Source: Metallumcola ferriviriculae (lineage in GTDB: Bacteria; Bacillota; JADQBR01). Taken from it: a stretch of DNA of 64,000 nt. The stretch lies in NCBI RefSeq assembly GCF_035573695.1, contig NZ_CP121694.1, forward strand, positions 844,501-908,500, read 5' to 3'. Below, one piece after another: positions 7,147 to 21,031 of the stretch (the first letter of the stretch is position 1; each line of letters opens with the position of its first letter). Under the pieces are notes generated by a model. The model saw nothing but the letters and a program-made list of their open reading frames with translations. It made no database searches and was not told where the DNA came from. Position numbers and translations under genes: made by a program.

Positions 7147-9045
7147 GATTCCCCTGCAAAAACCCCTAAAAAAAGGTCTTAAAAAGGAAGATTTTACCCC
7201 CTTCGCGTCGAAGTAATAATGGTAGAAACCATTGGTAGGTCTACACTTGAGGCGAAGGGGCGTGCAAAGAATGTTTAGAAAAAACGATGGTCATTTGCAG
7301 GAAGAATTGTTCAGTCACTATCAAACCATGAACCCTAAAATAGCTAAAATGCTGAAAGATACCTGGGCACCGATTTTTTATGAGCATGTCTTTTGTAAAA
7401 TAGATGAAGAAGTGTTTGCTCCACTTTACTGTTTTGATAACGGCAGGCCTAATTTCCCGGTAAATATCCTTTTATCATTGGAATTAATAAAGAATATGTT
7501 CGACTACACAGATGAAGAAATCTTAGAACAATTCTATTTCAATTATCAGGTAATCTACGCTTTAGGTATCAAAAATATTGGCGAAATATACTTTGCTGAA
7601 CGCACCCTGTATGAATTTAGAGAACGCCTCGTCAACTACGTTAAGGAACACCCCGATGAAGAAGAAATCATGTTTAAGCAGTTTGAAATCTTAACTCGGC
7701 ATTTCATCGATAAAGCCAATATTAAAACAGACGAACAAAGAATGGACTCAACCTATGTTACCCCTAATATTAAAAGAGCTGGAAGGTTATCCCTTGCTTA
7801 TGATTTTTTAGAAAAAGCCGTGAAAGCAATACCTCAAAAACATTTAAGCAACTCACTAAAAGAAGTACTGGAGCCTTCCTTCAAGACCAAACTGCTGTTT
7901 AAAACCAAGGCCAGTAAGATAAATGCCAAGCTTGAGACAGTACTCATACTTTGTACAGAAATTTATGACCTCGCTAAAGCAAAACAACTAACTTCAAAAG
8001 AGGAAATCAAACTGTTAGCTCGTTTTCTCAATGAACAAGCACATTATGATACAGAAAAGAAAGTCTGGGTGCCCGAAGATAATAAAGAAATTTCTTCCGC
8101 ATCCATGCAGTCTGCCCATGATACGGACGCTACCTTTAGAAATAAAAACGGTAAGACGAACCAAGGCTATGTTGTTAATCTAGCTGAAACATGTTCGAAA
8201 GATAATCCGGTGCAGCTAATTACAGATTACGATCTGGATGTCAATATAAAAAGCGATACAGAACTGGCACGAAAACGTGTAGATACTATCAAGAAAAATA
8301 CTGATGTTACTGACCTCTACGTAGATGGCGGCTATTACGGCGAAGAAACAATTAACAAAGCTGATGAAGCAGAAGTCAAACTGCATTTTACAGACATGAC
8401 CGGCAGGAAAAGTACCAGTAACAAATTACCTCTGACAAACTTCAACTTCAATGAAGAACATGAGGTGGAAAAATGTCCTGCAGGTAAAATACCACTTCGA
8501 AGCGACTATAGTAAGAAATCTAAAAGTACAACGACCCATTTTGAGAAGTCAGAATGCCTTTATTGCCCCATAAGAGAGCATTGTCCCGTAAAGCCGCAGA
8601 AAAAATCAATGGTACTGAGAGCCAGTAAAAAAGCAATACTAGCAGCCAACACCCGCCAAGAAATTTCAAAAAAGGAAATACGACGTGAAAACACCAGTAA
8701 AAGGGCTGCCATAGAGGGTACCAACTCTGCAATTAAAAGGGGCCAAGGTGCTAACAAACTTAGAGTAAGAGGCCTGATCAAATGTCAGTTACAAATTGGC
8801 CTCAAGGTAATTGGTCATAACTTCAAACAATTTTCCCGAGCAATGAATAAGCCTAAACCAAAAGGCAGGGAAGTGGTGTGTCCAATGTAGAGCAAAACAC
8901 AGTGAAAACAAGGATTTATTGATGTATATGCACATCATATACCTGAAAAAATCCGGCTTTGAGGTAACTAAACAAAAAATGAGCTTATTTTAAATTCTCC
9001 CAAGGGGTTAATAGGGGGTAATCACTCCCTTTCAGCAGGGGAATC
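7147..9045 (+). mobile_element. IS1182-family insertion sequence, complete, with 7-bp target repeat
   Basis: Terminal inverted repeats GATTCCCCTGC (7147-7157) and GCAGGGGAATC (9035-9045) bound one transposase gene. The direct repeat AAACAAG flanks both ends (7140-7146 and 9046-9052). Near the left end, CCCCTTCGC (7198-7206) and GCGAAGGGG (7253-7261) form a stem that could shield the transposase from read-through transcripts. The element separates two divergent ECF-type promoters. Confidence 0.85.
7271..8890 (+). CDS. IS1182-family transposase
   Basis: 539 aa from ATG 7271; an upstream in-frame GTG-like start would run into the stem-loop. The N-terminus is the DUF772 type (RPNFPVNILLSLELIKNMF and FAERTLYEFRERL). 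The catalytic core follows with AHDTDATFRNKNG, LYVDGGYYGEET and the late glutamate in RAAIEGTNSAIKRGQG. A zinc-binding cysteine cluster (CLYCPIREHCP) sits before the end. Full length and no frame break, so probably active. Confidence 0.92.
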   Translation: MFRKNDGHLQEELFSHYQTMNPKIAKMLKDTWAPIFYEHVFCKIDEEVFAPLYCFDNGRPNFPVNILLSLELIKNMFDYTDEEILEQFYFNYQVIYALGIKNIGEIYFAERTLYEFRERLVNYVKEHPDEEEIMFKQFEILTRHFIDKANIKTDEQRMDSTYVTPNIKRAGRLSLAYDFLEKAVKAIPQKHLSNSLKEVLEPSFKTKLLFKTKASKINAKLETVLILCTEIYDLAKAKQLTSKEEIKLLARFLNEQAHYDTEKKVWVPEDNKEISSASMQSAHDTDATFRNKNGKTNQGYVVNLAETCSKDNPVQLITDYDLDVNIKSDTELARKRVDTIKKNTDVTDLYVDGGYYGEETINKADEAEVKLHFTDMTGRKSTSNKLPLTNFNFNEEHEVEKCPAGKIPLRSDYSKKSKSTTTHFEKSECLYCPIREHCPVKPQKKSMVLRASKKAILAANTRQEISKKEIRRENTSKRAAIEGTNSAIKRGQGANKLRVRGLIKCQLQIGLKVIGHNFKQFSRAMNKPKPKGREVVCPM

Positions 9046-10439: not shown

Positions 10440-11396
10440 ATGAGTGAAGGTGTATTTCGTGAAGTATCCCTGGAGAGGCTTTCATCTCCGGAGCAGCTCG
10501 ATGAACTAATAAAGGTGACATCCCCTAGGTCTTGGTTTGCCCTGATAGCGATTGGCTGTATTCTTATTAGTGCGGTTGCTTGGAGTTTTTTAGGCAGTAT
10601 TCCTACAAAAATAGATGGTCGGGGGATTCTTATTAATGATGGAGGTGTTTTCACTTTACAGCATCATACCGCCGGACAGGTGATTGACGTTAGATTTATG
10701 CTAGGAGATATGGTGAAAAAGGGCGATGTCGTAGCAAGAATTGCACTGCCTCAACTGGTTGCCGAAATTAATAGTCTGCAGAGCACTCTCAATGAGATGG
10801 GAAATAACCAACGAGCCGATTCGCCTGAGTATAAAGTAATAGAAGACCAAGTGCTACAGCTTCGTGAAGAATTAGATTATAAGTCTCAAATTGTTTCCCA
10901 GATTGATGGACGTATATTAGAGTTAAATATCGAGAAAGGAAGCATCATCCAGCCAGGAGACCCCCTGGTTACCCTGGAGCAATATGGTGGAACGGTGAAG
11001 ATGGAAGCAGTGATCTATGTTCCTGCTGAACAAGGTGGTATCATCCTGCCCGGGATGGAAGCCCAGATTTCTCCTACGATTGTGAATAAAGAAGAGTATG
11101 GTTTTATGTTAGGAAGGGTTATTTCTGTTTCTGAGTATCCTGCTACGACGCAAAGTATGATGCAAACTTTAGGAAATGAAAATTTGGTTGCTCTGCTCTC
11201 GGGGCAAGGTGCTCCTCTGATGGTACGGATTGACTTAATTCCTGACGACAGCACTGAAAGTGGTTATCGGTGGTCATCGCATGGGGGACCTCCTATGTAC
11301 ATTCATAGTGGTACCATTGTTGAAAGTGCTGTAATTACCAATAGGGAAAAGCCGATAAGCAAGGTAATTCCTTTGTTTGGAAGTGCAGTTCATTAA
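10440..11396 (+). CDS. NHLP-type HlyD-like secretion adaptor
   Basis: 318 aa from ATG 10440, which follows GGAGGTG; the opening SLERLSSPEQLDELIKVTSP is characteristic of the HlyD-like subunit of NHLP bacteriocin export systems. One transmembrane helix near 30-55 is followed by a biotinyl-lipoyl-like half (GQVIDVRFMLGDMVKKGDVV), a short coiled coil (EINSSLQSTLNEM region) and the second half (GSIIQPGDPLVTLEQ). It links the two ABC subunits to the cell exterior. Here, in a Gram-positive type locus, it would extend into the wall. Confidence 0.88.
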   Translation: MSEGVFREVSLERLSSPEQLDELIKVTSPRSWFALIAIGCILISAVAWSFLGSIPTKIDGRGILINDGGVFTLQHHTAGQVIDVRFMLGDMVKKGDVVARIALPQLVAEINSLQSTLNEMGNNQRADSPEYKVIEDQVLQLREELDYKSQIVSQIDGRILELNIEKGSIIQPGDPLVTLEQYGGTVKMEAVIYVPAEQGGIILPGMEAQISPTIVNKEEYGFMLGRVISVSEYPATTQSMMQTLGNENLVALLSGQGAPLMVRIDLIPDDSTESGYRWSSHGGPPMYIHSGTIVESAVITNREKPISKVIPLFGSAVH

Positions 11397-11414
11397 AAGC
11401 GGGGAGGTGATAAG

Positions 11415-13571
11415 GTGAAAAAAAATAGAAGAGCTAAGGTTCCTACTGTACTGCAGATGGAAGCTGTGGAATGCGGCGCAGCCTCTCTTGCCATGATTTT
11501 AGGCTATTTTGGCAAATACATACCGTTAGAGGAACTAAGAACAGATTGTGGCGTATCCCGAGATGGCAGCAAAGCAAGCAATATACTGAAAGCAGCTAGA
11601 AAGTATGATCTGGAGGCCAAGGGTTATCGTAAGGAACCTGAGTCTTTAAAAGAAATTCCAATGCCCATGGTTGTGCATTGGAATTTTAGTCATTTCCTAG
11701 TGTTAGAAGGTTTCCATCAGGGGAAAGTCTTTTTAAACGATCCAGCCTCCGGCAGGCGGGTCGTGACAGAAGAGGAATTCAGTCAGTCCTTTACAGGGGT
11801 AGCATTGGTTTTTATACCACTGCCTCAGTTTCAAAAAGATGAAAAAAAACCCAGCCTTATCTCCGCTTTAAAAAAACGTTTGCATGGATCAGAAACTGCT
11901 TTGATCTATATAGTCTTATTAGGGCTGGCACTGGTAATCCCGGGATTAGCCATTCCTGTATTTGCCAGAGTTTTTATTGACGATATTTTGCTAGGTGGAA
12001 GGGATTTCTGGCTCGCGCCCCTGTTGTTAGGCATGGGAATAACGGCGGTCTTAAGGGGAATTTTAACCTGGCTGCAGCAGTATTACCTTTTAAGGCTGGA
12101 AACTAAAATAGCCTTGACGACATCAGGACAGTTTTTGTGGCATATTTTAAGGCTGCCAACCGAGTTTTTCTCTCAGCGATCTTCCGGGGAAATAACTTCT
12201 AGGATGCAGAGCAATGATAGGGTAGCGAAAATATTGTCAGGACAACTGGCCACTACAGCTTTAAATTTTGTGATGATTTTTTTCTATTTCACTTTAATGT
12301 TACAGTATAACGTTATCTTAGCTTTAGTAGGACTGGTTATTGCCCTTATCAATGTTCTTTATTTAAAATTGGTTTCTGCTAAAAGAGTGGACCAGAACCG
12401 AAAGCTATTAAAAGACCGAGGGAAACTAGGTGGTACGGGCATGTCCGGTCTACAAATAATAGAGACTCTAAAAGCTACCGGATCAGAATCGGACTTCTTT
12501 GCTAAGTGGTCAGGATACCAGGCAAAAGCACTAAACTCTGAACAAGAACTAGGTGTTTCTTCTCAATTTTTATCTGTCTTTCCTACTTTTCTTACGGGAA
12601 TAAATAATACGATTGTATTAGCTTTAGGCGGTTTTTTAATCCTGGAAGGGCAAATGACCATCGGCATGCTGGTAGCCTTTCAAAGTCTGATGGCCAGTTT
12701 TATGAGTCCTGTGACAGGAATCGTTGGGCTTGGAGCCGAGCTGCAGGAAATGGAAGGAGAAATGAACCGCTTAGACGATGTCTTGAAATATCCTCTTGAT
12801 CAAGAAGCTGGGGGTGAAAGGGAAGAAACTACCCCCTATGCAGGGCAAAAGCTGGAGGGATATATAGAGCTTAGTCAAATAACCTTTGGCTACAGTTCTT
12901 TGGAGCCTCCATTGATTGAAGATTTTACTTTATCACTCAGGCCAGGGTCTCGGGTAGCTCTTGTCGGTGGTTCCGGCAGCGGGAAATCCACAGTAGCAAA
13001 AATAATTGCTGGAATTTACCGACCCTGGTCTGGAAAAATACTTTTCGATGGCCAACCCCGTACATCATTTCTGAGGGTTGCAATTAGTAATTCCTTGGCC
13101 ATGGTAGATCAGGATATCAATATGTTTCAAGGGACAGTGCGGGACAACATCACCTTATGGGATGAGACTATCTCGGAATTTCAGATGATCCGTGCTGCCA
13201 AAGATTCCTGCATCCATGATGATATTACTTCTCGGTCCGGGGGGTATGACCATTCGGTAGAGGAAGGCGGAAAAAACTTTAGTGGCGGGCAGAGGCAGAG
13301 GCTGGAGATAGCCAGGGCGTTGGCTCAGAATCCAACGATTATCATCATGGACGAAGCCACCAGTGCCCTTGATCCTGTTACCGAAAAAATTGTTGATGAA
13401 AACATCCGGCGTCGTGGCTGCACCTGTATTATAGTGGCTCACCGCCTGAGTACCATTCGGGACTGTGATGAAATCATTGTTTTAGAAAAGGGAAAAATTG
13501 TGGAAAGAGGTACCCACGAGGAATTGAATAATCGTGCTGGAATTTATGCAAATCTGATCCAAACGGGTTAA
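11415..13571 (+). CDS. NHLP-family export ABC transporter with C39 peptidase domain
   Basis: 718 aa, GTG start behind GGGGAGGTGA. Residues 1-130 are a C39 peptidase with C20 (VECGAASLAMIL), H93 (HWNFSHFLVL) and D109 (LNDPASG), which cuts leaders after a double glycine. Six membrane helices follow (about 160-440). The ATPase domain carries Walker A GGSGSGKST, signature FSGGQRQRLEIARAL and Walker B IIIMDEATSALD. It should remove the leader of the 5251 peptide at G67 during export, and could equally act on the VAAG/FGG motif of the 4751 product. Confidence 0.93.
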   Translation: MKKNRRAKVPTVLQMEAVECGAASLAMILGYFGKYIPLEELRTDCGVSRDGSKASNILKAARKYDLEAKGYRKEPESLKEIPMPMVVHWNFSHFLVLEGFHQGKVFLNDPASGRRVVTEEEFSQSFTGVALVFIPLPQFQKDEKKPSLISALKKRLHGSETALIYIVLLGLALVIPGLAIPVFARVFIDDILLGGRDFWLAPLLLGMGITAVLRGILTWLQQYYLLRLETKIALTTSGQFLWHILRLPTEFFSQRSSGEITSRMQSNDRVAKILSGQLATTALNFVMIFFYFTLMLQYNVILALVGLVIALINVLYLKLVSAKRVDQNRKLLKDRGKLGGTGMSGLQIIETLKATGSESDFFAKWSGYQAKALNSEQELGVSSQFLSVFPTFLTGINNTIVLALGGFLILEGQMTIGMLVAFQSLMASFMSPVTGIVGLGAELQEMEGEMNRLDDVLKYPLDQEAGGEREETTPYAGQKLEGYIELSQITFGYSSLEPPLIEDFTLSLRPGSRVALVGGSGSGKSTVAKIIAGIYRPWSGKILFDGQPRTSFLRVAISNSLAMVDQDINMFQGTVRDNITLWDETISEFQMIRAAKDSCIHDDITSRSGGYDHSVEEGGKNFSGGQRQRLEIARALAQNPTIIIMDEATSALDPVTEKIVDENIRRRGCTCIIVAHRLSTIRDCDEIIVLEKGKIVERGTHEELNNRAGIYANLIQTG

Positions 13572-13597
13572 TTAACGAATTAAAGTAGGTGAGCTAA

Positions 13598-16306
13598 ATG
13601 AAGGTTGGGGATTTTTTTAACCAAGAAGGCATCAAGATTCCTATTGACGGCAGCAAACCTCGGATTTTAGACGATGCCGGCTATGTTTGGATGGTTGGGG
13701 AGGGGAAGATTTCTGTCTTCTTAACGGTTCTAACAAAAGAAAACAGGACAGGTGTAAAAAAATACTTGTTTGAAGCAAAACAAGGTGATTTACTTTTTGG
13801 AATTGAGCCTGGGGGTTTCCCCGATCGAAAAGGTCTTATGGCATCTGGTTTGATCGGTTCCAGCTTAATGCGTCTTGAGGTAAAGCAGCTTAGAAAACTA
13901 TTAGAGGAAGATATATCTGAAGAAGTTATAAAGCTGGTGAAGCGATGGCTTGAAGTTTTAGCTAAAGTCAATAAAAGTGACGATATATCACGCATAGAAA
14001 TTGCTGCTGCAGAAGAAAAGGGATTATCTGAGTATGAATATTTAAACGACCCCTTGATTATGGAAGATTATCATAGTCGGATTCTTCAGTCTATTACCGA
14101 CTTATGGGAAAAACAAAATCAAGGGGAAAAAATTCGCCTGCGTGAAAAAGAAAGATACGATAGACGTCTAATGGAAAACTCAATCTCTAGGCTAGCATCA
14201 ATTAACCAAAAGGAGAAAACAGTAAGCTTGGAGGAAGAAAGTGGGGATATTCTGCTAGATGCCTGCCGTTTGGTAGGTCGGAGTTTGAATATCGAAATCG
14301 TTACACCTGCCTTCAGTAGTCCTGGGAGCCGGAGTAATACTCAATTAGATGAGATTGCCCGAGCCTCACGCATCCGTACTAGAGAAGTGACTCTGCAAGG
14401 GGAATGGTACAGACAAGACGGCGGCCCCATCCTGGGTCATATGCAGGAAGATGATAGACCGATCGCCCTAATCCCTGCATCGCCTTCTAAATATATCTTA
14501 CATGACTTTGTTTTGGGGATAGAAAATGTTGTGGACAAGGAAACTGCTGCAAAAATCAAACATTTTGGTTTTGTCTTTTACCGTCCGTTTGAACATCAGG
14601 AAATTACTCTTCGCGATCTGCTATCCTTCGGCTACAGAAGCTGCTGGAAACGAGATTTAGCAATGATAGCATTGATGGGTGTCCTGGGGGGGATACTAGG
14701 CACTGCTATTCCCCTGGCAACGGGGATAGTCTTTAGCAGTATTATTCCTGAAGGTGAAAGAGGCCAGTTGCTACAAATCGCTTTTTTTCTAGGGGCAAGC
14801 GCCTTGGCCGCCATGCTCTTTCAATATACTCGTTCTCTTGCTACGCTGCGCATGGAAGGTAAAATGGACAGTTCTATTCAGGCTGCTGTTTGGGATCGAT
14901 TACTAAGCTTACCCGTACCTTTTTTTAAGCAGTTTTCTGCAGGAGAATTAGCCATGCGGGCTATGGGTATCAGCCGGATACGAATGATCCTCTCAGGAGT
15001 GACTCTAAATACAATTCTATCCAGCATTTTTTCTGTTTTTACCTTTGCTTTGCTTTTTTATTATGATATTAAGCTAGCCGGGGTAGCGGCTGTATTGGTT
15101 GTGTTAGCCATAATTGTGATGGGTTCTTTAGGCTACTGGCAGGTACGCTACGAGCGTAAAGTATTAGAAATTTCTAATAGCATCTCCGGCATGATGCTGC
15201 AGCTTATCGGAGGAATAACCAAATTCCGTGTAGCAGGAGCAGAAAGCAGGGCTTTTCACCGATGGGCAAAAGAGTTTGGTGAACAACGGAAGTTATCTTT
15301 TAAAAGAGAGACTTTGGGCAGCTGGCTGGCCACTTTTAACTCTTTTTTTCCCGTCCTATCGAGCATGGCTATTTTTTATACCTTGACTTCATCCAACAGT
15401 ATTTTATCACCAGGTCAGTTTATTGCTTTTAATTCAGCCTTTGTTACTTTTATGTTTTCCATGGTTTCTTTGTCGGAGTCATTAATCAGTGCAAACATTG
15501 TTATCCCCTTATATCAAAGAGCTAAGCCTATACTTGAAACTTTACCTGAATATGATGATACCAAGATAAACCCGGAAACCCTTACCGGCTCGATAGAAGT
15601 TAGCCATGTATTTTTTCGCTACAAAGCAGATGCTCCCTTAGTGCTGCAAGATGTCTCTTTTCAAATTAATGAGGGGGATTATGTAGCCTTAGTGGGTACT
15701 TCAGGCTGCGGGAAGTCTACCTTATTTAGAGTCTTGCTGGGCTTTGAAAAACCAGAGACAGGGAAGGTTTACTACAATGAGCAAGACTTATCTAAAGTAG
15801 ATATTCGCGCTGTACGCAAGCAACTGGGTGTAGTGTTGCAAAACGGGCAGCTCATGTCCGGGAGCATCTTCAGTAATATTGTAGGTGCCAACCCTTACCT
15901 GACTATAGAAGATGCTTGGGAAGCGGCCAGGATGGCCGGCATTGAGGAAGACATCAAGGAAATGCCGATGGGTATGCATACTGTCATCAGCGAAGGAGCA
16001 GGTACAATCTCCGGAGGACAAAAACAGCGATTGATGATAGCTAGAGCTATCATCAATAAACCTAAGATTATATTCTTCGATGAGGCCACCAGTGCTCTAG
16101 ATAACCGTACCCAAGCCATAGTCAGCAAAAGCCTTGACCAACTCCAGGCTACACGGGTAGTTATTGCACATCGTCTAAGTACTATTATGAACTGCAATAA
16201 GATCATCGTTATGGACCGGGGAAAGATTGTGGAAAGTGGGACTTATCAAGAGCTTATGGAGAATAAAGATATTTTTGCTGACCTAGCTAAAAGACAGCTA
16301 GCTTGA
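13598..16306 (+). CDS. NHLP-family export ABC permease/ATPase, second subunit
   Basis: 902 aa. A long N-terminal part (1-340) holds a cyclic nucleotide-binding-like fold but no peptidase motif. Membrane helices lie between about 350 and 620. The C-terminal ATPase shows GTSGCGKST, ISGGQKQRLMIARAI and IIFFDEATSALD. The length and layout match the partner subunit regularly found beside C39-containing NHLP exporters. Last gene of the export operon; a strong terminator follows. Confidence 0.9.
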   Translation: MKVGDFFNQEGIKIPIDGSKPRILDDAGYVWMVGEGKISVFLTVLTKENRTGVKKYLFEAKQGDLLFGIEPGGFPDRKGLMASGLIGSSLMRLEVKQLRKLLEEDISEEVIKLVKRWLEVLAKVNKSDDISRIEIAAAEEKGLSEYEYLNDPLIMEDYHSRILQSITDLWEKQNQGEKIRLREKERYDRRLMENSISRLASINQKEKTVSLEEESGDILLDACRLVGRSLNIEIVTPAFSSPGSRSNTQLDEIARASRIRTREVTLQGEWYRQDGGPILGHMQEDDRPIALIPASPSKYILHDFVLGIENVVDKETAAKIKHFGFVFYRPFEHQEITLRDLLSFGYRSCWKRDLAMIALMGVLGGILGTAIPLATGIVFSSIIPEGERGQLLQIAFFLGASALAAMLFQYTRSLATLRMEGKMDSSIQAAVWDRLLSLPVPFFKQFSAGELAMRAMGISRIRMILSGVTLNTILSSIFSVFTFALLFYYDIKLAGVAAVLVVLAIIVMGSLGYWQVRYERKVLEISNSISGMMLQLIGGITKFRVAGAESRAFHRWAKEFGEQRKLSFKRETLGSWLATFNSFFPVLSSMAIFYTLTSSNSILSPGQFIAFNSAFVTFMFSMVSLSESLISANIVIPLYQRAKPILETLPEYDDTKINPETLTGSIEVSHVFFRYKADAPLVLQDVSFQINEGDYVALVGTSGCGKSTLFRVLLGFEKPETGKVYYNEQDLSKVDIRAVRKQLGVVLQNGQLMSGSIFSNIVGANPYLTIEDAWEAARMAGIEEDIKEMPMGMHTVISEGAGTISGGQKQRLMIARAIINKPKIIFFDEATSALDNRTQAIVSKSLDQLQATRVVIAHRLSTIMNCNKIIVMDRGKIVESGTYQELMENKDIFADLAKRQLA

Positions 16307-16337
16307 CATACATTACAAACGAAAAAGTTTAACTGTA

Positions 16338-16376
16338 AAAAAAGTGTCAGAAGCATTGCTTCTGACACTTTTTTTA
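16338..16376 (+). terminator. Terminator of the export operon
   Basis: AAAAAGTGTCAGAAGCA and TTGCTTCTGACACTTTTTTT give a near-perfect 16-bp stem followed by a T-run. Confidence 0.92.
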
Positions 16377-16666: not shown

Positions 16667-16719
16667 TTGACGGCAACTACTAAGTGTAGTAAATTGAATA
16701 TATACCCCCTATAGGTATA
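16667..16719 (+). promoter_or_regulatory. Promoter with CsoR-like copper operator
   Basis: A -35 TTGACG (16667-16672) and a -10-like TAAATT (16690-16695) are separated by 17 bases. Immediately downstream lies the near-palindrome TATACCCCCTATAGGTATA (16701-16719), similar to the TACCCC...GGGGTA operators bound by CsoR-type Cu(I) repressors. It overlaps the expected transcription start, as needed for repression. No csoR gene is in the window. Confidence 0.6.
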
Positions 16720-16747: not shown

Positions 16748-16909
16748 ATGTCTGATTTTCTTAATAGTTATGGAAGCTGGATTTTGTTTGGAGGGTTGAT
16801 GTTATTGATGATGCGTATGCATGGCTCCGGCGGTGGTTGTTGTGGCGGCCAGCAACATACTACGCAAAATAAAGATGATGGTGCAGACCATAGACCGCAT
16901 CAGCATTAA
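16748..16909 (+). CDS. Small Met/Cys/His-rich membrane protein (DUF2933-like)
   Basis: 53 aa from ATG 16748 behind GGGAGG. One hydrophobic helix (SWILFGGLMLLMMRM) is followed by GSGGGCCGG and a His-rich tail (HRPHQH). The Met, Cys-Cys and His residues are soft-metal ligands. It sits between a CsoR-like operator and copA, so a role in copper handling at the membrane is likely. Such proteins resemble the short DUF2933 type found beside copper exporters. Confidence 0.7.
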   Translation: MSDFLNSYGSWILFGGLMLLMMRMHGSGGGCCGGQQHTTQNKDDGADHRPHQH

Positions 16910-16962: not shown

Positions 16963-19410
16963 GTGAATACTACTTCAGTTAACTTACCTATTTCTGGCAT
17001 GAGCTGCGCAGCATGTGCCAGCAGAATCGAAAAAGGACTTAACAAACTAGATGGTGTAGAAAAAGCAAATGTTAATTTTGCAGTTGAAAAAGCTACGCTG
17101 GAATACCATCCTGATCGATTGGGCGTAGATGATTTCATCAAAACTGTTCATGACCTGGGATATGAAGTTGGTACCGAAAAAATTGAACTAAAAATTGGCG
17201 GCATGACATGTGCGGCATGCGCGAGCAGAGTGGAAAAACAGCTTCATAGTCTTGAAGGGGTTATTAAGGCCGGAGTAAACATTGCCACTGAAAAGGGTAC
17301 TGTAGAGTTCATTGCAAGACAGCTTAAAGTTCATGACCTGCGGCAGGCAGTAGAAAAAATTGGCTATACGGCTGAGCTGGTTGAAGAGCTTAATGAAGAT
17401 AAGGAGAGGCAGCAGCGGCAGAATGAGATTGTTCGTCAGCGGAATGTATTCATTCTCTCAGCGATACTTTCCGTTCCCTTGCTGTTGACCATGTTTGCTC
17501 ACATTTTCGAATGGGCTTGGTACCCTGAAATCTTAAAGTCGTCGTGGGTTCAATTATTGTTGGCGACACCTGTCCAATTTGTTGCAGGCTGGCAGTTTTA
17601 TCGCGGCGCTTATCTCAACCTTAAACATGGGTCGGCAAATATGGATGTACTGGTTGCCATGGGTACTTCTGCCGCCTATTTTTACAGTCTGGTGAACACG
17701 TTTATTGGGGGACCGCTTTATTACGAAACAGCGGCGGTATTAATCACTCTAATCATTTTGGGGCACATGTTAGAGTCAATTGCCAAGGGTAGAACTTCTG
17801 AAGCCATTAAAAAGCTCATGGGGCTTCAAGCGAAAACTGCCAGGGTAATCCGTAACGGAGAAGAAATGGACATCCCGGTTGATACAGTAGAGCTGGGCGA
17901 CGTGATTGTCGTTCGTCCCGGTGAAAAAATTCCGGTAGACGGAAAGGTGATTGAAGGTACATCGGCAGTAGACGAATCCATGCTGACGGGTGAAAGCATT
18001 CCGGTGGACAAAAAAGCCGGCGATGAAGTGATTGGTGCCACCATCAATAAACATGGTTCCTTTAAGTTTGAGGCAACCAAAGTGGGTAAGGATACGGCGC
18101 TTGCACAGATTATCAAGGTTGTAGAAGATGCGCAGGGTTCAAAAGCACCTATCCAGAAAATGGCGGACATCATTTCCGGGTACTTTGTGCCGGTGGTGGT
18201 GGCAATTGCAGTAGTTACCTTTTTGATATGGTATTTTGTCGTCACACCCGGTAATTTACCGGTAGCTTTAATTAACTTTACCGCCGTACTAGTGATTGCC
18301 TGCCCCTGTGCGCTGGGGTTGGCTACACCGACCTCAATTATGGTGGGTACGGGTAGGGGTGCAGAAACCGGTATCCTTTTTAAAGGCGGCGAACACCTTG
18401 AAAAAGCGCACAAACTAAATGCCATTGTTCTGGATAAAACCGGAACCATTACTAAAGGTCAGCCCGAAGTCACGGATGTGGTGTCATTGGACGACACTCG
18501 GGAGGAAGACTTACTAATAATTGCCGGGGCAGTAGAGAAAAATTCCGAGCATCCGCTCGGCCAGGCCATTGTGAAAAAGGCCGAAGAGAAGCAGAGACTG
18601 CCTCAAACCGACAGTTTTAATGCTATTCCCGGCCATGGGATTGAGGCTCATATCGATGGGAAGCGAGTATTGGTAGGTAATACAAAATTAATGATTGAAC
18701 GCGACGTCAATGTATCTAATTTTGAAGAGCAAAAGGCAAAGCTTGAGAACGAAGGGAAAACAGCCATGCTCATGGCAATCAATGGCCGTCCTTCTGGTCT
18801 CATTGCAGTGGCTGATACCGTGAAACAGCATTCAAAGACCGCAATTGCTCAACTTAAGCAAATGGGGATTGAAGTCTACATGATAACCGGGGATAACCGG
18901 CGTACGGCGAATGCTATCGCCAAGCAGGTAGGCGTGGATAATGTTTTAGCAGAGGTACTGCCTGAAGATAAGGCCAAAGAAGTACAAAAACTAAAAGATG
19001 CCGGCAAGAACGTGGGTATGGTTGGTGATGGTATCAATGACGCACCGGCTCTGGCGACGGCTGATATCGGTATGGCAATCGGGACAGGAACCGATGTTGC
19101 GATGGAAGCCGCTGACGTCACCCTCATGCGTGGAGATTTGCGTAGTATAGTTGCTGCTGTACAGCTTAGTAAAGCCACTATGAAAAACATCAAGCAGAAT
19201 CTATTTTGGGCTTTAATTTACAATACCATTGGTATACCCGTTGCAGCGAGCGGTTTACTGAACCCGATCATCGCCGGTGCCGCTATGGCGTTTAGTTCCG
19301 TATCTGTGGTGAGTAACGCTCTTCGCCTGAAAAGATGGCGTTTTCATATGGAAACCGGAGAAATGCATGTTGAAGAAGCAGATCAGAGCCGCGTTTCGGC
19401 AGCAGTATAG
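16963..19410 (+). CDS. copA: Copper-translocating P-type ATPase CopA
   Basis: 815 aa, GTG start behind AAAGGGGAG. Two N-terminal heavy-metal domains carry GMSCAACAS (about 13-20) and GMTCAACAS (about 83-90). The membrane metal site is CPCALG, the phosphorylated aspartate is in [13 protein letters not shown] is the actuator motif, HP is in SEHPLG, and the ATP/Mg region reads [10 protein letters not shown]. These define a P1B-type Cu(I) exporter. It is followed by 75 bases and then a radical SAM peptide cassette in the same direction with no terminator between, so co-transcription is likely. Confidence 0.96.
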
Positions 19411-19485: not shown

Positions 19486-19716
19486 GTGGCAAACTATTGT
19501 TTTCCTAATTTGAAAGCAAACATTGAGAACTTAAAGAAAAAGGATAAGGACTATCTTACCGGCCACGAAGGCTGCGTTGAATTGTTCTGCAAGGATTGTG
19601 ATTTCTTTCGAGAAGATGAGAGGGACTTGGAATGCGGGGCTTTTAAATTGCTAAAGAAATTGATGGATAATAAAATCATTACTCCCGAGGATATCTTCAA
19701 TGTCGTCAGCGATTGA
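19486..19716 (+). CDS. Small cysteine-containing protein of the radical SAM cassette, unrecognised
   Basis: 76 aa from GTG 19486, ten bases after AAGGAGG. Six cysteines occur: C4, then the cluster GCVELFCKDCDFF, then ECGAF, on a largely helical, Lys/Asp-rich chain. It overlaps the radical SAM gene by 17 bases, so it is coupled to it. The C-x5-C-x2-C spacing could bind a metal. I do not recognise a family. It could be a partner or chaperone of the maturase or a second substrate. Confidence 0.7.
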   Translation: MANYCFPNLKANIENLKKKDKDYLTGHEGCVELFCKDCDFFREDERDLECGAFKLLKKLMDNKIITPEDIFNVVSD

Positions 19717-20866
19717 TTCGCTAAACTTTAACCCGGCATTTTCCCTCAAAAATCTGGAAGAACCTGTGATATATGATAAGGTAAACGACGAACTTTACGA
19801 ACTTAACCAGGAAGCATACCAATTCTTATTGTCTTGTGCACGGGGTAATGTTCGTGTGAAAGACGTACCTACGGATGCTGAGGCGAAGGAATTCATAGAT
19901 TTCTGCATTGAGGAAGAAATATTGGCGGTTAAGCCTGTCAGCGCGCCGGTAGAGGTTGTTGCTGACAGTACACCAAATCCTTCGTTGCGCTATCTTGAAG
20001 TTCAATTAACTGATCGCTGCAACCTTCGCTGCCACCATTGCTTTCTTGGCGATACCCAGGGACATGATATGGGATTGGAACACTTTTATGCTGTGGCGCA
20101 GCAGTTTGAGGCTCTGCAAGGACTCAAAATGATGTTGACAGGGGGAGAACCGCTTCTGTACCCTCATTTCTGGGAGATAAATGAGAAGTTGCCGAAATAT
20201 GATTTTCGAAGCGTGTTGCTTTCTAACGGGCATTTAATCAGCAGGGAAGCGGCTCAAAAGTTGAACGTGCATGAAGTACAGTTAAGTATTGATGGCATGG
20301 AAGAAGCACACGATTCTCTGCGAGGTAGGGGCAGTTTTAGGAAAGTGACGGAGGCTTTGGAAGCTCTATTGGCATGCGGTAAGAAAGTATCTATCGCTAC
20401 CATGATTCACGCCCGTAACCTTAATGATTTTGCCCAACTGGAAAAACTAATTGACCAGTACGGCATAGATGAATGGAACATTGATTTTCCTACACCAACT
20501 GGTCGTCTTGCACAGAATGAAATCTGCCAAGTAACGCCGGAAGTGGCTGCGCCGTTAATGCAGTACAGCAGAAGTGGAGGACATTTTAACGGCAACGGCC
20601 CTTGGGCATGTGGCGCACATTTGGCCACAGCCACAGTAGACGGGCATCTGGAAAAGTGCAGTTTTTATTCGACAAAGGAAAATCCAATTTTCGAAATAGG
20701 ACTCCGCGCGGCTTGGGTTAATACGCCTCGGGTAACCCTAGTAGAATTGGAATGTGACTGTGAGTACCTGGAACAATGCAAAGGAGGCTGCAGGTTCCGA
20801 GCGGAGACCTTTGGCAATCCCAAAAGTCCTGACCCGCTGCAATGCCATTGCTGTGGTGTAATCTAG
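19700..20866 (+). CDS. Radical SAM/SPASM peptide maturase with fused PqqD-like domain
   Basis: 388 aa. Residues 10-80 (YDKVNDELYELNQEAYQFLL) are PqqD-like, i.e. a RiPP recognition element that binds a leader peptide. The radical SAM cluster is C107-x3-C111-x2-C114 (DRCNLRCHHC), with MLTGGEPLLY and LSIDGMEEAHDSLRG following. The C-terminal SPASM part is Cys-rich: CGAH, CSFY, ECDCEYLEQCKGGC and CHCC, enough for auxiliary clusters. A 20-residue peptide gene follows 55 bases later. The predicted job is cross-linking or other modification of that peptide's cysteine region. Confidence 0.85.
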   Translation: MSSAIDSLNFNPAFSLKNLEEPVIYDKVNDELYELNQEAYQFLLSCARGNVRVKDVPTDAEAKEFIDFCIEEEILAVKPVSAPVEVVADSTPNPSLRYLEVQLTDRCNLRCHHCFLGDTQGHDMGLEHFYAVAQQFEALQGLKMMLTGGEPLLYPHFWEINEKLPKYDFRSVLLSNGHLISREAAQKLNVHEVQLSIDGMEEAHDSLRGRGSFRKVTEALEALLACGKKVSIATMIHARNLNDFAQLEKLIDQYGIDEWNIDFPTPTGRLAQNEICQVTPEVAAPLMQYSRSGGHFNGNGPWACGAHLATATVDGHLEKCSFYSTKENPIFEIGLRAAWVNTPRVTLVELECDCEYLEQCKGGCRFRAETFGNPKSPDPLQCHCCGVI

Positions 20867-20871
20867 CTTTT

Positions 20872-20887
20872 AACCCTTGGAAGGGTT
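20872..20887 (+). other. Small stem-loop between maturase and mini-peptide
   Basis: AACCCT, loop TGGA, AGGGTT. No T-run follows, so it is more likely an mRNA processing or stability element that could set a different peptide:enzyme ratio than a terminator. Confidence 0.4.
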
Positions 20888-20920
20888 GAATATAAAATTT
20901 CATAAAGGAGGTGTTAAGGC

Positions 20921-20983
20921 ATGAAGATTAAAAAAGTATCCAAGCGTCAGTCCAACCTGTGCAAGTGCCATGCATCCTGCTAA
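20921..20983 (+). CDS. 20-residue Cys-rich mini precursor peptide
   Basis: The full translation is MKIKKVSKRQSNLCKCHASC. Translation is well supported: AAAGGAGGTG lies seven bases before the ATG and a strong terminator lies just after the stop. A basic stretch (1-11) would be the leader and NLCKCHASC the modified part, with cysteines at 14, 16 and 20 and His17. The length is comparable with PqqA, another tiny radical SAM substrate. It follows a radical SAM/SPASM gene with a fused leader-binding domain and a copper ATPase. I know no named family for it. Confidence 0.75.
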   Translation: MKIKKVSKRQSNLCKCHASC

Positions 20984-20991
20984 TAAGTGTG

Positions 20992-21031
20992 AAAAAAGAT
21001 AGCCCCCTGTCAGGGGGTTTATCTTTTTTTG
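20992..21031 (+). terminator. Terminator after the mini-peptide
   Basis: AAAAAGATAGCCCCCTG and CAGGGGGTTTATCTTTTTTT form a strong GC stem with a T-run; it closes the copper/radical SAM operon. Confidence 0.92.

Follow-up and report, generated by a model that had tools for sequence, protein, structure and literature searches.

A radical SAM cassette with a CKCxxSC precursor peptide: a candidate RiPP-like family apparently drawn into the copper response of one Bacillota clade

In the window, i.e., the whole analysed stretch of 64,000 nucleotides from Metallumcola ferriviriculae, copA is followed by genes for a small cysteine-containing protein (F8), a radical SAM (rSAM) enzyme and a 20-residue peptide, and the four genes appear to form a single run, closed by a terminator, that lies behind a CsoR-type operator (Table 1). 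The F8 and rSAM genes overlap by 17 nt. No terminator was found in the window sequence between copA and the F8 cassette, and no Rfam family lies within the operon. The first gene after the operator encodes a single-span protein (MSDFLNSYGSWILFGGLMLLMMRMHGSGGGCCGGQQHTTQNKDDGADHRPHQH), while CopA carries two HMA (CopZ-like) domains. An earlier note on this DNA had described a run comprising the operator, a His/Cys/Met-rich membrane protein, copA and a small Cys protein, and all of these are present as it had them.

Table 1. Features of the copA-cassette operon (positions in the window)
Feature	Position	Strand	Basis
Promoter-like TTGACG-17-TAAATT of the copA-cassette operon	16667..16695	+	9/12 consensus match
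CsoR-type operator, palindrome TACCCCCTATAGGTA	16703..16717	+	sequence; 7 nt past -10
53-aa His/Cys/Met-rich small membrane protein	16748..16909	+	no NCBIfam/Pfam match
copA, Cu(I)-exporting P1B-type ATPase	16963..19410	+	TIGR01511, 646 bits vs. cut-off 397
F8, 76 aa, GTG start	19486..19716	+	three invariant Cys, alignment
RRE-radical SAM-SPASM maturase (predicted), 388 aa, ATG start	19700..20866	+	PF04055, 1.7e-18
Shine-Dalgarno sequence AAAGGAGGTG of the peptide gene	20903..20912 (within 2 nt)	+	sequence
Precursor peptide (predicted) MKIKKVSKRQSNLCKCHASC, 20 aa	20921..20983	+	conserved CKCxxSC(G)
Intrinsic terminator of the operon	21001..21029	+	8-pair stem (21001-21019) and T tract

Immediately before the copA operon ends an NHLP bacteriocin export set (10440-16303), comprising an HlyD-type adaptor, a peptidase ABC transporter and a second ABC transporter (TIGR03794/03796/03797, all above cut-off). 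Between the two groups of genes, at approximately 16335-16375, lies an inverted repeat with a T run after it. A remnant similar to the end of a transposase gene lies at 8500-8890.

In total, 41 loci were read, two of them from Bacillota (the window and locus L032 of genome G284) and 39 others. The peptide gene, with its ribosome site and terminator, had been noticed earlier in the window alone, and a search for similar peptides beside rSAM homologues had been proposed. The gene was confirmed where it had been placed, and peptides preceded by a Shine-Dalgarno sequence and ending in CKCxxSC or CKCxxSCG are encoded at 35 of the 41 loci; nearly all have 20–21 residues, and their ribosome sites are as strong as that in the window. 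A Shine-Dalgarno-preceded ORF ending in CxCx3C was found at most 500 nt downstream at 30 of the 41 loci, versus none of 8200 shuffles. Because of this conservation of the ending and its absence from the shuffles, the ORF is not a product of chance, and MKIKKVSKRQSNLCKCHASC is, on sequence grounds, a genuine peptide. Within the core, the codons for Cys, Lys and Ser show synonymous variation and the encoded residues are fixed, although the search pattern itself demanded those residues. Six loci are devoid of the peptide, and several of these stop at a contig edge.

The peptides consist of a basic N-terminal half, K-I-x-K-x-x-K/R, and a conserved TCKCxxSC(G) end. The peptides of the window and of G284 share the core CKCHASC; members of the Thermoleophilia clade have CKCSSSC, CKCCSSC or CKCHSSC, and those of another clade CKCNKSCG. 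The three cysteines are conserved, whereas histidine is present in 4 of the 35 members and absent from 31. The gene is mostly situated just downstream of that of the enzyme, in some loci as far as about 450 nt away, and it is on the opposite strand in L149 and L155. No Sec signal peptide was identified in these basic peptides of 20–21 residues, which have no hydrophobic stretch, and no conserved exporter or peptidase was observed as a part of the cassette among the loci read.

The rSAM enzyme of the window contains the motif CNLRCHHC. In an alignment of 30 sequences, the three cysteines of the CxxxCxxC motif (C107, C111, C114) are invariant, and so are C304, G315, C320, C354, C360, C364 and C382 of the SPASM pattern (C-x9-15-G... 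Cx2Cx5Cx3C ... C); its first spacing reads CxC in the window, as against CxxC in the HK clade. In the AF2 model (pLDDT 91.6), residues 6-79 form beta-strands followed by helices, as in a PqqD-like RRE. The model aligns with peptide-bound SuiB from residue 7 (Z 27.4, 3.7 A, 361 residues) and with SkfB from residue 12 (Z 26.6, 330 residues), in both cases with the RRE included. The next structural matches, to anSME, CteB, ChlB and PqqE, cover the rSAM-SPASM part. As the N-terminus has no Pfam PqqD match, the RRE assignment is one of structural support; it agrees with the fused PqqD-like domain that had been proposed for this radical SAM/SPASM enzyme. By its modelled fold, the enzyme is predicted to be a peptide maturase. 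All matches to NCBIfam rSAM families are far below their cut-offs, so that homology gives no indication of the reaction.

F8 is the second constant component of the cassette, situated upstream of the rSAM gene at 37 of the 41 loci. A search of 396 Actinomycetota genomes with a profile of F8 recovered it in the same 29 genomes that contain the enzyme, whereas the remaining 367 gave no hit. Thus, F8 and the rSAM enzyme are obligate partners. The three invariant cysteines of F8 belong to the aligned motifs CxxDCxF and EC. The model of F8 is helical and confident (pLDDT 90.5), with no fold match in PDB, none by Foldseek or VIA, and no family match in NCBIfam or Pfam.

The three-gene module occurs mostly in Actinomycetota. 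Enzyme homologues were detected in a Thermoleophilia MAG (locus L007) and, within the phylum of the window, in one further genome, G284. They are present in 17 of 249 genomes of the class of the former and in the above 29 Actinomycetota genomes (about 7% of the sample); G284 is the only genome of its class with a homologue. None was found in 400 Chloroflexota genomes, and searches of plasmids and IMG/VR yielded distant relatives only. The window and G284 loci form a clade with support of 0.93. Several genomic contexts recur elsewhere. In one clade (L149, L153, L154, L155), the cassette directly precedes the dcw cell-wall cluster (mraZ-rsmH-ftsI-mur). At L007 (7599-7988, minus strand) and several similar loci, a YlbF/YmcA-family protein with a CSCSH or CSCGH C-terminal tail, a weak relative of halo-CC-star HcsL, is encoded downstream of the cassette, as is a small ferredoxin.

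The two Bacillota loci share signs of copper regulation, although their layouts differ. In the window, the cassette is the tail of the copA operon, whereas in G284 it stands alone, and copA is located elsewhere in the genome. The G284 cassette has its own promoter, TTGACG-17-TATAAT, and 7–8 nt beyond it the perfect palindrome TACCCCTCAGGGGTA, which is separated from F8 by about 35 nt; the TTGACG element and the promoter-operator spacing are identical to those in the window. The copA promoter of G284 (TTGACA-17-TATAAT) has a palindrome of the same type inside its spacer. Each of the two genomes has one gene of the CsoR family. The Cu(I) ligands of CsoR are Cys36, His61 and Cys65, and both proteins retain equivalents of all three. 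Operators and regulator type thus give good support to copper regulation of the cassette in this clade. Further perfect palindromes precede lgt in G284, where it is the third of the CsoR type (L108, 4001-4903), and a small operon with lgt at its end in the genome of the window (L109, 4001-6169), which suggests that prolipoprotein diacylglyceryl transferase may be copper-controlled in both genomes.

The copper link proposed from the window therefore holds for the two Bacillota loci, including the one with a CsoR operator of its own, and does not hold as a property of the family, as the other 39 of the 41 loci show no copper control. Among the 40 loci besides the window, copA occurs within about 8 kb in a single one (L062, 7 kb away). 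In the HK and dcw clades, neither a CsoR-type operator nor a convincing shared upstream motif was found. Since the link is present in two Bacillota loci and missing in 39 others, the sequences point to a new rSAM-RiPP-like family that a single clade has drawn into its copper response.

The Thermoleophilia clade requires separate consideration. Here, TACCC-N3-GGGGTA palindromes occur, including one before the single csoR-like gene. These operators were considered as control elements of the cassette and rejected by a distance test and by locus L052. The palindrome keeps a constant distance to the start of a divergent Phs-like operon (128 +/- 11 bp), whereas its distance to F8 varies (321 +/- 113 bp); in L052, it is 7.4 kb from the cassette, beyond an ORF of 1889 aa. 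This ORF, at -6166 to -497 relative to the rSAM start, separates the cassette from the Phs-type operator. Hence, the palindromes are more likely owned by the Phs-like operon and do not constitute evidence for copper. In L053, L055, L059, L060, L063 and others, the CsoR-type operator stands at the head of a divergent Phs/Psr-like operon for a molybdoenzyme and multihaem cytochromes. The sole CsoR homologue of this clade has two cysteines and an arginine at the His position (Cys-Arg-Cys), a CstR-like pattern as expected of a thiol/persulfide sensor, not a copper sensor, which suggests that the Phs/Psr-like operon may belong to a reactive-sulfur regulon. A two-Cys CsoR homologue of Thermus, TTHA1953, controls sulfur oxidation (PMC10318464).

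The module, its conservation, gene linkage, operators and type of regulator can be read from the sequences. In the joint reading that we favor, with a probability of roughly 45%, the rSAM enzyme and F8 modify the peptide, the product is intracellular, and its role in Bacillota is that of a thiolate ligand for Cu(I) or of a hand-off peptide. The built-in RRE would bind the basic N-terminal half (K-I-x-K-x-x-K/R) of the 20–21-residue peptide, and rSAM/SPASM together with F8 would modify the TCKCxxSC(G) end; the likeliest change would be a cross-link between a Cys sulfur and a neighboring residue. As peptidase, exporter and signal peptide are not part of the cassette, the product would remain intracellular. 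In the Bacillota clade, Cu(I) would relieve repression by CsoR, so that the module would be made together with CopA. Its product, whose core is CKCHASC in both members, could then take on the role named above, and an intracellular Cu(I)-ligand role in this clade is plausible. Against this reading stand the 39 loci that show no copper control and the 31 peptides that lack the His of the proposed copper site. The more specific proposal, that a Cu(I)-induced intracellular peptide made by a radical SAM enzyme binds copper and either buffers it or passes it to CopA, is less likely than not. If true, it would be the first copper-handling RiPP from a radical SAM enzyme, arisen within the wider, unnamed CKCxxSC family.

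The main rival is a general thiol/redox peptide merely placed under copper control. Such an intracellular thiol, redox or persulfide peptide would resemble the mycofactocin cofactor in role, its function would not be copper, and CsoR control in Bacillota would reflect the destruction by Cu(I) of thiols or of the Fe-S enzymes served. We regard this as a tentative but serious candidate. It accommodates the scarcity of copper genes at most loci, the conservation of three thiols but not of His, the lack of an exporter, and the position of the Thermoleophilia cassette next to a thiosulfate/polysulfide-reductase-like molybdoenzyme operon with the operator of a CstR-like regulator. This last association is weakened by the operator tracking the Phs operon, not the cassette, with L052 as the extreme case, and other clades adjoin unrelated genes (kinases, the dcw cluster).

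Two further explanations concern the identity of the substrate and the fate of the product. The peptide might be an unmodified metal- or Fe-S-binding accessory, with the enzyme acting on F8 or another protein, given that F8 is linked as tightly as the enzyme and has three invariant cysteines, and that the peptide may be encoded on the opposite strand (L149, L155). This is improbable, as the RRE of the enzyme aligns with those of SuiB and SkfB, and the peptide has a RiPP layout with a basic leader-like half and a conserved Cys core. Less probable still is a secreted copper chelator or antimicrobial RiPP, an analogue of methanobactin or bufferin exported by the neighboring NHLP transporter. The latter is encoded just upstream in the window, but NHLP genes were not seen beside other loci, and the inverted repeat and T run intervene between them and the copA operon. 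The earlier note's comparison with such chelators is not borne out by the cassette, which has no signal peptide, conserved exporter or peptidase and, by NCBIfam and Pfam, no MNIO (DUF692) domain among its proteins.

Among known systems, the closest are SuiB/SuiA (streptide) and SkfB/SkfA (sporulation killing factor), which have the same full-length fold with an RRE and an adjacent short precursor gene. The present enzyme differs from SuiB and SkfB in sequence (16–19% identity), in its 20-aa Cys-rich precursor, in a cassette without exporter or peptidase, in the extra obligate three-Cys partner of unmatched fold, and in the copper control observed in one clade. PqqA/PqqD/PqqE and mycofactocin MftA/B/C are alike in combining a tiny precursor, a PqqD-like domain, a SPASM rSAM enzyme and a presumably intracellular product. 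PqqA contains the motif E-x3-Y, and MftA ends in V-Y; the peptide described here has neither, and the enzyme does not reach the cut-off of the mycofactocin maturase model TIGR03962 (78.6 vs. 265 bits). The SbtM selenobiotic, GeoRSP and other NCBIfam rSAM-peptide systems likewise place an rSAM/SPASM enzyme beside small peptides; for our enzyme, the scores are 60.5 vs. 350 bits (SbtM) and 66.4 vs. 400 bits (GeoRSP), and the partner proteins differ. The Cys-rich core is compatible with the Cys-to-C thioethers of sactipeptides and ranthipeptides, as judged from its sequence.

Bufferins and methanobactins are likewise copper-linked Cys peptides (PMC12452194, PMC3621798). Both owe their synthesis to MNIO enzymes, and bufferin precursors carry a Sec signal peptide (PMC12452194), whereas here the enzyme is a radical SAM protein and the peptide has no signal peptide. 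The view that no described family has this layout was upheld: searches of NCBIfam, Pfam and the open literature returned nothing corresponding to the peptide family, F8 or the copper branch, and no paper among those searched mentions the cores CKCNKSC, TCKCSSSC or CKCHASC. Annotation misses the system because the precursor has only 20 residues. As a kind, rSAM-RRE peptide systems are known; the CKCxxSC family, the F8 partner and the copper-controlled branch are apparently new. They add a compact, testable three-gene system of peptide modification, and if its product binds Cu(I), copper-handling peptides would be made by radical SAM chemistry and not by MNIO enzymes alone.
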